Notes under the pieces: model-generated
What the model was told of the DNA's origin: nothing
The model's input: the letters and a program-made list of their open reading frames with translations, nothing else
Database searches by the model: none
Source of the DNA: Candidatus Hydrogenedentota bacterium
GTDB lineage: Bacteria; Hydrogenedentota; Hydrogenedentia; Hydrogenedentales; CAITNO01
Reading direction: 5' to 3'
NCBI GenBank assembly: GCA_012730045.1
Contig: JAAYBR010000106.1
Span: forward strand, 1-64,000
DNA: 64,000 nucleotides
Program-made: the position numbers and the translations under genes
Shown here: positions 27,415 to 31,250 of the stretch, piece by piece
How positions within the stretch are numbered: position 1 is the stretch's first letter
Layout of the letters: each line of letters starts with the position of its first letter

Positions 27415-28449
27415 TCAGCCCCGCCAAGGGGAGGGGAGAATGAGCTCGCGGTAGAGCTGCATGGCGTACTCGTCCGTCATGCCCGCCACGAAATCCGCCG
27501 TGCGGCGGGCCAGGGAGTCCGCCGGATCCGCCTCCAGTATGTCCGGAAGCGGGTGCGCCAACAGGTGCGCATGGAGCGTTTCAAGCATCTGCTCCGCCTT
27601 CTTGATCTCCGTGTCTATGGCCGCGCAGGGGTACACCGTGGAATACAGATAGGTGCGCAGGGTCAGCATGGCGTCCCGCACCTCCGGCACAATGCCCACG
27701 GTCCCGTCCGCGCTTCCGTGGATCACCCCGACCACCATCGTGTTGATGCGTTCGGACGTGGTCTTTCCCAGAACCCCCACGGCGTCGCGGGGCAGGTCCT
27801 CCGGCCGCAGCACCTCCGCGCGCAGGGCGTCGTCTATGTCGTGGCTGATGTAGCCGATGGCGTCCGCGATGGCCACCACCAGCCCCTCCAGTGTGGCGGG
27901 CCCCTCCGCGCCTCGGGGCTTTCCATAGAGCAGGCCCTTGCCCCGGGAGTGGTTCACAATGCCGTCCCGCACCTCCCATGTCAGGTTGAGCCCCGGCCCG
28001 GAGCGCCGCTTCTCCAGCTTCTGCACCACCCGCAGGCTCTGCTCGTAGTGGCGAAAACCGCCCTCCAGCGCGCGGTCCAGCACGCGCTCCCCCGCATGTC
28101 CAAAGGGCGTGTGGCCAAGGTCGTGGCCCAGCGCGATGGCCTCCGTGAGATCCTCGTTCAGAAACAGGGCCCGCGAGATGCTGCGCGCGATCTGGGAGAC
28201 CTCCAGCGTGTGTGTCAGACGGGTCCGGTAATGGTCCCCGGCGGGGGCGAGAAAGACCTGCGTCTTCCGCTTCAGACGCCGGAAAGCCTTCGTGTGCAGG
28301 ATGCGGTCCCGGTCCCGCTGGAATGCGGTCCGGTGCGGGTCCTCCGTCTCCGGATGCTCCCGCCCGCGGGTTTCGGCCGCCCGCGCCGCCCCGGGGCACA
28401 GGGTCATGGACTCCCGCTTCTCCAGTTGCTCTCGGATGGTTTCCGTCAC
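27415..28449 (-). CDS. dGTP triphosphohydrolase-like HD protein
   Basis: A 344-residue HD-domain protein of the deoxyguanosinetriphosphate triphosphohydrolase-like family, which cuts dNTPs to nucleoside and triphosphate. The opening (REQLEKRE ... RGREHPE) and FQRDRDRILHTKAFRRL are typical. The HD residues are H80 (RLTHTLEV), H109-D110 (LGHDLGHTPFGH) and a distal Asp in DIDDALRAE. I start at GTG 28449 because AGGAG sits 8 nt upstream and the alignment-like opening begins there; a longer frame to 28956 would run through a palindromic repeat. A TGC-TATACT element at 28486-28494 is a likely promoter -10. It is monocistronic and convergent with the phosphofructokinase operon. Confidence 0.9.
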   Translation of the reverse strand: MTETIREQLEKRESMTLCPGAARAAETRGREHPETEDPHRTAFQRDRDRILHTKAFRRLKRKTQVFLAPAGDHYRTRLTHTLEVSQIARSISRALFLNEDLTEAIALGHDLGHTPFGHAGERVLDRALEGGFRHYEQSLRVVQKLEKRRSGPGLNLTWEVRDGIVNHSRGKGLLYGKPRGAEGPATLEGLVVAIADAIGYISHDIDDALRAEVLRPEDLPRDAVGVLGKTTSERINTMVVGVIHGSADGTVGIVPEVRDAMLTLRTYLYSTVYPCAAIDTEIKKAEQMLETLHAHLLAHPLPDILEADPADSLARRTADFVAGMTDEYAMQLYRELILPSPWRG

Positions 28450-28485
28450 GGTGAAGACTCCTGACGCGCCCCCGCAGTCCCCAAA

Positions 28486-28494: not shown

Positions 28495-28631
28495 CGCCCC
28501 CCTTGTGGAACATGGGACGGCCGCGCATGCTAGCAGGGTAATCGCACTGAAATGCCCCTCAAGAAGTGCCTGTCCCCGGTATGGACGGTCCTTGGTTATG
28601 TGATTCTGTCTTTGTTGTCCCAGCGGGACAT

Positions 28632-28937
28632 CCGAATATAGCCCAGGCCAGGCCGCCGCCCGAAGGGCCAGGCCTGCCCTGGGGAGGATGCACCCTAAAG
28701 ACTTGCCCTGAAAGGGCAGCCGAAATTGACGCGCCGGGAAGAAGACAAGGCCGGCGGGACGTCGGCGGTAAGAAGCCAGGCCCGGCAGGTCTTTCCGTAC
28801 CGCTGGCGTCCCGCCGGCCTTGTCTTTGGGTACCCGTCCCCATTTCGGCTGCCCCGTTGGGACATGATTCTTTCTGTCCGGGCACCCCAGGGCAGGCCTG
28901 GCCCTTCGGGCGGCGGCCTGGCCTGGGCTATATTCGG
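28632..28937. repeat. Nested long palindrome in a 674-bp gene-free gap
   Basis: The gap 28450-29123 holds no gene. Within it lies a 306-bp element with perfect 53-bp inverted arms (28632-28684 and 28885-28937). Inside are further perfect arms of 13 bp (GGGCAGCCGAAAT 28714-28726 / 28842-28854) and 20 bp (28742-28761 / 28807-28826, core AAGGCCGGCGGGACG). The whole can fold into one branched hairpin. Both strands give open frames, but they are mirror translations of the palindrome. I infer a miniature mobile element or several nested dispersed repeats. The A-rich and G-rich stretch at 28976-29015 follows it. Confidence 0.85.
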
Positions 28938-29123
28938 CAACGCTTTCAGCGTTCAAGAGGGCAAGGAACAGGGAACGAAAAAAACGCTTTTTCAGGAAGG
29001 GGGGGGGATTTTAGCGCGATTGCCCTAAGTATGCTAGGCTTCTAAAAGCGGGTTGGAGAAGAATGCCTGTCCTCCCCAAAAAGCATGCGGCGGCACACGG
29101 GCACCCCCCCAGGAGAACAAGCC

Positions 29124-31250
29124 GTGACACACACACCTCTGCGTCTTTTGGCGGTCGTTGCGACGCTCCTCTGGGTGATGCCCGCCCGGGGAGAGGACGT
29201 CCTCCCGTTCCCGGCCTCGCTGGATGAACTCGGCGGAAGTGTTCAGACCTGCGCGACCTTGGAGCACATGCCCGCATTGGCCAATCTGCACGGGGCGGTG
29301 GCCGCCGGAAGAAATGTGCTTTCGGTCACGGTGGCCACCTTCCCCCCGCTGTCGCAGGGCGGCGAGGCGCTGGCGCTTTCGGTCAACGGCGCGCCGGTGG
29401 CCGCCGAAACCTCCCAATGGCGGGCGTATGAAATCCGGAGAGAGGGGGCTGCGGGCGCCCTCAAGGTCCGCACCACCACGCGCATGGCGGATTCAGACGC
29501 CGGGCTCCTGCTGACCTTCGCCGTGGAAAACCCCACGGACACGGACGCAGCCGCAGTAATCTCCCTCAGCTCCCGAATCATTGTCCGGCGCCAGGAAGGA
29601 ACCTGGGCCTGGGCGCCCCCGAGGCCGGACGACAAGGCACAGGACCACCGCGCTGTTCCGGACGGGGAGGACGCGGTCACTTGGGCCGACAGCAAGTCCC
29701 CCGCCGTGACCGCCATGGTTATGACGCCATCCCCGCGCTCCATGGACGCGGAGGACTGTCTCCATTGGGAGGAGCGGCTGGCCCCCGGCGGCAACCTCAC
29801 CGTGCGGATCACTGTAGCCTTCGGCGCAGACCGGGCGGAAACGCTCCATCGGGCGCACAGTTGGCTGAACGGATTCAACGACCAGCAGGAGACGGCCCGG
29901 ACCGGATGGGAAACGCGCTTCAAGGACGCCTTCACCCCGGGAAACGGGAGGTACAGCGGGCATCTTCCCCTGTTGGCTACGGACGACCGGGCGCTCCACC
30001 GTGTGTATTACGGCAGCGTGCTGAGCTGGCTGTGCATGGAGCGGACCGGCCTTTCGGAGAAGTACCCCAGGGTTTTTGTGACCGCCTCGCCGTTCTACGC
30101 CCCGACGCTCACCTACTTCTGGGACACGCAGTTCTACGGCACCCTCTGGGCGCTGCTGGACCCGGCAGGACTGAAGGAACAGCTCCGGCTCTTCCTGGCT
30201 GCGGACATTCATTCGTGCTATGCCGTGGACTTCCTCACGCTGAAAGGCGTGGGGCCGTGGTACAGCGCCAACGACTACGCGCTTTTCCAGTTGCTCACGA
30301 CCTACATGCGCTTGAACGATGACTGGGCGTTCTTGGAGGAGCGTGTCGGCGGACGGACCATTCTGGAGCACCTCGAATCCCTCGCCACCCACTGGAAGAA
30401 ACTCGCCGACAACCCCTTCGGCATGGCGGACTACGGCACCAAGGACAACCTCCTGGAGACCGTGCCCACCTACACGAACGTTGTGCCATCGTTCAACGCC
30501 GCGAACGTGTGGATGATGCGCACGCTTGCGGGCATGCTGAGGGAGCGGGGCAGGGGGGAGGATGCCGCGCGTCTTGAGGAGGAGGCGGGGGGGCTGGCGG
30601 GGCGCGTGCTTTCCCTGTGCAGCGACGCCAACGGCTGGTTCAGTTGCCTCATGCCGGACGGACGCCGGCAGGAGGTGCGCTCCGTCGTGGACTTCATGAC
30701 CGTCGCCGCGTGCATGGCGGAGGACGTCCCGCCGGGGCTCCGCGGGCGCATGATGGATTCCGTGGACCGCGAACTGTGGACCGGCCAGTGGCTCCGCGCC
30801 CTGTCCATTGAGGACCCCTCCGCCGGGGACACCCTTTCCCGCCCGGAGGTCATGGCCTCGTGGGAAAGCGGCTGGCCGGGCAACTCGCTCCGCGCCGACC
30901 ACGGGTTCACGGGATCCTACACCGCCTGGCCCGCGCAGGTGGCCGAGGCTTTCAGCCGGTGGGGGCGGCGGGACCGGGCGCTGGAAATGCTCCGGGCGGT
31001 GTCACCGGTGCTGGAGGAGGGGCCTTACGGCCAGTCTCACTACATTCCCGCCCCGACCCGCCCCGTGCGCAAGGCTTTCAAAGGAGGACAGGACTACTTT
31101 GAGGGCTGCGGCGGCGCTTTTGCCGAGGTGATTCTCCGCCACTTCTGCGCCGTTTCCGGACCCACGGACAGCATCTCGTTCACTGCGGAGGAAGGTAGCG
31201 GAGAAAATGCTTCTTGGGGCGTGGAACCGCCCGGAGGCTCCGGTGTTTAA
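29124..31250 (+). CDS. Secreted (alpha/alpha)6-barrel glycoside hydrolase-like protein
   Basis: A 708-residue secreted protein with a signal peptide ending at ARG-E (about residue 24), an N-terminal beta-sandwich (about 30-240) and a C-terminal (alpha/alpha)6 toroid. The barrel has YFWDTQFYGTLWALLDP, a motif arrangement like GH37 trehalases and GH63 glucosidases, and later SFNAANVWMMRTLA and WESGWPGNS. I cannot place it in one family with certainty. I start at GTG 29124, with AGGAG 8 nt upstream and a good signal peptide, rather than the frame from 29085. It precedes the DUF1549-DUF1501 cassette by 52 nt and may be co-transcribed with it. Confidence 0.6.
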   Translation: MTHTPLRLLAVVATLLWVMPARGEDVLPFPASLDELGGSVQTCATLEHMPALANLHGAVAAGRNVLSVTVATFPPLSQGGEALALSVNGAPVAAETSQWRAYEIRREGAAGALKVRTTTRMADSDAGLLLTFAVENPTDTDAAAVISLSSRIIVRRQEGTWAWAPPRPDDKAQDHRAVPDGEDAVTWADSKSPAVTAMVMTPSPRSMDAEDCLHWEERLAPGGNLTVRITVAFGADRAETLHRAHSWLNGFNDQQETARTGWETRFKDAFTPGNGRYSGHLPLLATDDRALHRVYYGSVLSWLCMERTGLSEKYPRVFVTASPFYAPTLTYFWDTQFYGTLWALLDPAGLKEQLRLFLAADIHSCYAVDFLTLKGVGPWYSANDYALFQLLTTYMRLNDDWAFLEERVGGRTILEHLESLATHWKKLADNPFGMADYGTKDNLLETVPTYTNVVPSFNAANVWMMRTLAGMLRERGRGEDAARLEEEAGGLAGRVLSLCSDANGWFSCLMPDGRRQEVRSVVDFMTVAACMAEDVPPGLRGRMMDSVDRELWTGQWLRALSIEDPSAGDTLSRPEVMASWESGWPGNSLRADHGFTGSYTAWPAQVAEAFSRWGRRDRALEMLRAVSPVLEEGPYGQSHYIPAPTRPVRKAFKGGQDYFEGCGGAFAEVILRHFCAVSGPTDSISFTAEEGSGENASWGVEPPGGSGV

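Follow-up and report, generated by a model that had tools for sequence, protein, structure and literature searches.

The palindrome and the repeat unit around it

The window (the whole 64-kb stretch of DNA analysed) belongs to an uncultured Candidatus Hydrogenedentota genome (G000; draft of 4.46 Mb in 155 contigs, 97% complete), here called the own genome. It holds a nested palindrome between two divergent genes. The minus-strand gene at 27415-28464 encodes a dGTPase (NF002327, 459 bits), as an earlier note on this DNA had stated. The plus-strand open reading frame starts at 29085 or 29124 and ends at 31250. It has no match in Pfam or NCBIfam, so the name glycosidase proposed for it in the same note is not confirmed.

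Sequence comparison within the window shows that the outer arms, 28632-28684 and 28885-28937, are complementary at 53 of 53 bases. The pair 28714-28726 and 28842-28854 is complementary at 13/13 bases, and the inner pair 28742-28770 and 28798-28826 at 27/29, a perfect 20-bp stretch included. The geometry given in the earlier note, with perfect 53-bp arms enclosing perfect pairs of 13 and 20 bp, is thus accurate, but its coordinates describe only the middle of the unit, the real ends of which lie about 100 bp further out. A stretch of 371 nt folds with -272.8 kcal/mol, compared with -162 ± 5.7 kcal/mol for shuffled sequence (z = -19.5), well outside what chance would give. The 64-kb window contains no second perfect 20-mer with its reverse complement less than 500 bp away.

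Alignment of the copies with their flanks extends the homology from about 28534 to 29026/29027, past the palindrome on both sides. The repeat unit comprises 494 bp and has terminal inverted repeats of ISAs1 type (CAGGGYAATCGCRC). The ends of the window copy, CAGGGTAATCGCACTGAAAT and TAGGGCAATCGCGCTAAAAT, are imperfect inverted repeats (16/20). The unit is too short for a transposase of about 370 aa, and short open reading frames overlap it. Its parts are as follows:

28534..29027, no strand: whole MITE, 494 bp, defined by homology extent, ends and target duplications
28524..28533, plus: left target duplication CGCATGCTAG, agreeing with its right-hand counterpart at 7/10 bases
29028..29037, plus: right target duplication AGTATGCTAG
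28534..28553, plus: left terminal inverted repeat, ISAs1 type; 16 of 20 bases pair with the right end, and the type is shared with the G004 ISAs1 element
29008..29027, minus: right terminal inverted repeat, ISAs1 type, on the same basis as the left end
28617..28629, plus: left module, short hairpin 1 (GTCCC-AGC-GGGAC), 95% conserved among copies
28632..28684, plus: left module, long hairpin, which is the left palindrome arm
28704..28718, plus: left module, short hairpin 3 (TGCCCT-GAA-AGGGCA)
28714..28726, plus: left member of the 13-bp perfect pair (edge of hairpin 3 and CCGAAAT)
28742..28826, no strand: core, a REPIN-like inverted pair of REP-type palindromes containing the 20-bp pair of the earlier note; based on pattern hits, stand-alone pairs and the same REP type flanking a RAYT-like gene
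28842..28854, minus: right member of the 13-bp perfect pair
28850..28864, minus: right module, short hairpin 3 (TGCCCC-GTT-GGGACA)
28885..28937, minus: right module, long hairpin, which is the right palindrome arm
28939..28953, minus: right module, short hairpin 1 (AACGCTTTCAGCGTT), 97% conserved among copies

Copies, target duplications and the probable driver

Copies in the own genome were counted by pattern search. The end pattern AGGGCAATCGCAC, with at most one mismatch, has 58 matches, against none for the reversed pattern, and all except a few of these places are ends of the MITE family. Merging of end and arm positions into clusters gives 54 element locations, of which 26 are internal and 28 lie within 300 bp of a contig end. 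The copy number is therefore about 40-54 and not 54 exactly, because a single copy may span two contig ends. The single-copy case, which the earlier note had named as fatal to its reading, is also contradicted by BLAST of the own genome, which finds many copies. Among the 310 contig ends of the G000 assembly, 28 lie inside the MITE family, which is thus a major cause of assembly fragmentation.

In 13 complete copies, about 10 bases outside the two ends match in register (mean 9.2/10). Mismatched pairings of flanks reach 3.8/10, and none of 2000 permutations attains the real value; lengths of 9-12 bp were allowed for real and mismatched pairings alike. In the window copy the duplication has decayed (CGCATGCTAG and AGTATGCTAG, 7/10), and the duplications of other copies include CCGCCACCGG, CTCCCCGGCT, and TCCCCGGAAG. 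The joined flanks of eight copies, with one duplication kept, were searched against G001, a sister species in the same genus. Empty sites were found for four of them (L057, L006, L059, and L008), with 84-90% identity across the junction; at base level, three of the junctions align clearly and that of L008 weakly. At the locus of the window copy, relatives allow no clean empty-site comparison, as the G001 contig ends inside the dGTPase and G002 has other DNA upstream of the dGTPase.

The multiple copies, ISAs1-type ends, 10-bp duplications, and uninterrupted sites strongly support the assignment of the element as a MITE with ISAs1-type ends. The miniature mobile element suggested in the earlier note has thereby been borne out, as have the target duplications (10 bp) and the empty sites (four copies in G001) that were to be looked for.

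An ISAs1 transposase is present in relatives. The element G004:C392:1-1540 (L137, genus g4) is 1540 bp long and carries CAGGGCAATCGCA at either end; its 371-aa product is an ISAs1 transposase (NF033564, E 1e-122; PF13808 and PF01609). The 13-bp end is identical between this element and the MITE family, with one to two changes per end in the window copy, and the transposase with matching ends envisaged in the earlier note thus exists in a relative. G016 holds a second ISAs1 element, whose ends are related and which has a 10-bp duplication. Searches with PF13808 and with the G004 protein found no ISAs1 transposase in the own genome or in G001. Multi-copy insertion sequences are often missing from draft assemblies. 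We infer that the ISAs1 transposase family did the moving, and, since the own genome and G001 yielded no such enzyme, that it was supplied in trans. An ISAs1-type DDE transposase, acting in trans now or formerly, would bind the terminal repeats of about 14-20 bp, move the 494-bp unit, and leave the 10-bp target duplication.

Other MITEs, in G015 (L148-L151) and G007 (L144), genus g7, have the same ISAs1-type ends and different palindromic cargo (AGTCCCCCTTTGAAGGGGGA and similar). One of those in G015 has a 10-bp duplication. In G001, the MITE copy L156 (G001:C438, about 404-1692) appears to be split, at the TA in its right end, by an open reading frame that by eye resembles an IS630-type transposase.

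A second lineage of the MITE (type B) is present in the own genome at L054, L055, L057, L059, L060, L123, and L136. It has a GGAGTGCGGCAGCTTGCTGCCGC-type core and a degenerate left arm. Type B copies are bounded by the same outer ends and carry target duplications, which indicates that neither the core nor a perfect palindrome is needed for movement. The interior is thus probably passive cargo in transposition. Against this, conservation is higher in the hairpins than in the terminal repeats, a difference that a wholly passive role leaves unexplained.

The layered interior and its alternative explanations

The arm, 52-53 bp in length, is itself self-complementary and constitutes the middle hairpin of a module of about 110 bp. 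The module consists of a short hairpin, an AGCC-type long hairpin, a spacer of about 25 nt, a short hairpin of TGCCCTGAAAGGGCA type, and the end CCGAAATT. In the own genome, matches to the arm pattern with at most one mismatch occur in MITE copies or at contig C153 only. At C153 (L189), an HUH (Y1_Tnp) transposase gene lies between two modules in inverted orientation, and the right-hand module directly abuts the stop codon. This is the sole other inverted module pair found in the own genome, and it amounts to the palindrome of the MITE with a gene at the centre. The C153 protein has only Y1_Tnp in Pfam and no HTH domain, and it scores 46.6 bits to the IS200 profile NF033573 (cut-off 55). A simple motif search shows three of the five Y1 genes of the own genome without a module or REP nearby.

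Homologues of the Y1 protein are present in 42/68 genomes of the order. The flanks of 21 homologous genes across the order, located by tblastn and with enough flanking sequence, were compared. Inverted repeats bracket 17 of these genes, mostly as modules of the same build, with a mean flank alignment score of 42, compared with 12 when the flanks come from different loci. At the Y1 loci L229-L258 the module sequence is locus-specific and the build constant. Within 14 hand-chosen sequences, eight of 16 consensus pairs have changed on both sides with pairing kept. This covariation is stronger evidence than the DNA fold of a single module, which is only mildly unusual (z -1.9). Solo modules are also present in relatives, one of them beside a Y1 gene. 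An exact search for the arm across the collection returned a single contig, from a Ca. Hydrogenedentota MAG, and viral contigs contained no relative of the Y1 protein. Two plasmids of Bacteroidota carry Y1 homologues: in Persicobacter (CP012861.1, L259) the gene is flanked by hairpins in the same order as in the Hydrogenedentota module, and in Bernardetia (NZ_CP147018.1, L260) by inverted repeats of another type.

All 30 fetched Y1 homologues contain the motif Y---Q--HH, the signature of TnpA_Y1 subclass 1.2 (PMC6006769). This subclass is described as occurring mostly in Cyanobacteria and Bacteroidetes and as generally devoid of IS properties and of the terminal structures typical of IS200 (PMC6006769). 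With the signature in every homologue and a subclass described without typical flanking structures, the modules may be regarded, from sequence, as candidate cognate DNA for this orphan subclass. A stronger form, in which subclass 1.2 has its cognate DNA in the inverted modules and recognition by the enzyme persists within the MITE, is tentative and rather doubtful.

At 28742-28826, the core consists of a GC-rich REP-type palindrome in two inverted copies. The core REP pattern has 234 matches in the genome against 42 for the control, many of them in stand-alone inverted pairs 45-54 bp apart. On contig C62 of the own genome, a RAYT-like gene has three repeats of the same REP type on either side, and its protein scores 72.1 bits to NF047646 (cut-off 80). 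The foot of the REP, read by eye, is GTAC in the own genome and GTAG in the copies of G002. The many inverted pairs and the same REPs around a RAYT-like gene make the core REPIN-like. Transposases matching the inner layers are therefore present in the own genome (C153 and C62), in agreement with the REP-type enzyme anticipated in the earlier note. A core-free MITE at G001:C832 was considered as the pre-insertion state, of which it gives no proof. It retains a remnant resembling the end of the core, and is for that reason read as a deletion.

The interior thus has two layers, each homologous to and associated with an HUH-linked repeat system. The first is an inverted pair of the three-hairpin modules, as brackets a Y1 (subclass 1.2-like) gene, and the second, inside the modules, is a REPIN-like pair whose REP type is the one found around a RAYT-like gene. 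The element may have originated as a gene-less derivative of a Y1 locus, its centre being occupied by a REPIN; this history is read from these likenesses. The idea of repeats inserted within repeats, put forward in the earlier note, holds, with layers of REP and Y1 type inside a MITE. The palindrome is very probably the interior of a non-autonomous, ISAs1-ended MITE that moved in trans and drew its interior from two other repeat systems.

Another reading makes the palindrome itself the mobile unit, REPIN-like and moved in single-stranded form by a Y1 (subclass 1.2-like) transposase, with the ISAs1-like ends incidental. It would account for the same inverted modules bracketing a Y1 gene in the own genome and for the solo modules of relatives, including the one beside a Y1 gene. 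It is already contradicted, however, by the homology and target duplications, which mark the outer ends and not those of the palindrome. Close arm matches in the own genome are confined to the MITE and C153, and type B copies without a full left arm keep the same boundaries. Movement by the Y1 enzyme is accordingly very improbable.

Conservation of the hairpins raises the question of a host function. In 11 copies, the mean pairwise identity is 85-100% for the hairpins (arms 96%, inner pair 96-100%), 57-81% for the spacers, 61-80% for the subterminal parts, and 82-85% for the terminal repeats. Arms differ by 0.56 bases within a copy and by 1.18 between copies, and 15 of 5000 permutations are as low. 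Both observations would suit a hairpin kept by selection as a structured RNA, terminator, or mRNA stabiliser, with transposition secondary. The element, however, has no match in Rfam, no promoter was detected in it, and its terminator-like sites are weak only. The sister species G001 has empty sites for four copies, which argues against site-by-site conservation, and short-read assembly or shared ancestry could equally homogenise the arms. Selection for a host function is thus slightly less probable still than movement by the Y1 enzyme.

For the MITE, the likeness of the arms may come from arm-to-arm repair, selection on structure, shared ancestry, or homogenisation in short-read assembly. The separate MAG G001 has similar arms, so assembly is unlikely to be the only cause. 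The recent origin that the earlier note read from arm identity is not upheld: the arm is among the best-conserved parts in every copy (96%), and perfect arms are no sign that the window copy is young. An assembly artefact, for instance a chimeric inverted read, had been allowed for in the earlier note but has next to no probability. Although 28 of 54 element locations are at contig ends and assemblers do break there, full palindromes lie inside contigs C86, C105, C106, C111, C120, and C136 with different flanks, several of them with clean duplications of their own, and G001, a separate MAG, contains a related full element (G001:C832).

Significance and comparison with known systems

Bacterial miniature elements can stack repeat systems of unrelated transposases, and palindromes associated with single-strand enzymes are thereby spread by a cut-and-paste enzyme. 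If the Y1 enzyme does recognise the modules inside the MITE, the element would serve two unrelated machineries, with a DDE transposase at its ends and an HUH enzyme maintaining its palindromic interior. The lasting lead is the arm, which points to an inverted pair of three-hairpin modules as a recurring DNA partner for a Y1 subclass reported generally without typical flanking structures. Defined module substrates make the activity of subclass 1.2 directly testable. No report on MITEs or repeats in the phylum Hydrogenedentota was found in the open-access library searched.

The element resembles ISAs1-family insertion sequences and the MITEs derived from insertion-sequence ends in its CAGGGCAATCGCA end (G004), its 10-bp duplication (G016), a length too short for a full transposase, and its multiple copies. 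It differs in its interior, which shares nothing recognisable with the insertion sequence and comprises palindromes of two HUH-associated repeat systems, and in that no autonomous copy was detected in the same genome.

The core is similar to the REPIN/RAYT system (PMC3116915, PMC2817692), as it is a many-copy inverted pair of short GC-rich palindromes, and a RAYT-like gene is flanked by the same REPs. It differs in that the pair is carried within a DDE-type MITE, the foot reads by eye as GTAC in the own genome (GTAG in the G002 copies), and the RAYT-like protein is just under the NCBIfam cut-off.

The C153 gene and its homologues share with TnpA_Y1 subclass 1.2 (PMC6006769) the Y---Q--HH motif, on which the assignment is based, and few copies per genome. 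The Hydrogenedentota host and the consistent inverted flanking module set them apart. Like a TIRYT or TIRtron (PMC3733652), the C153 locus has a Y1 gene between long inverted repeats with self-complementary tracts, which are able to form repeat families. Of the published TIRYTs, 20/26 belong to subclass 2.1 and have HTH domains (PMC6006769), whereas the C153 gene has the signature of subclass 1.2 and a fixed flanking module of three hairpins.
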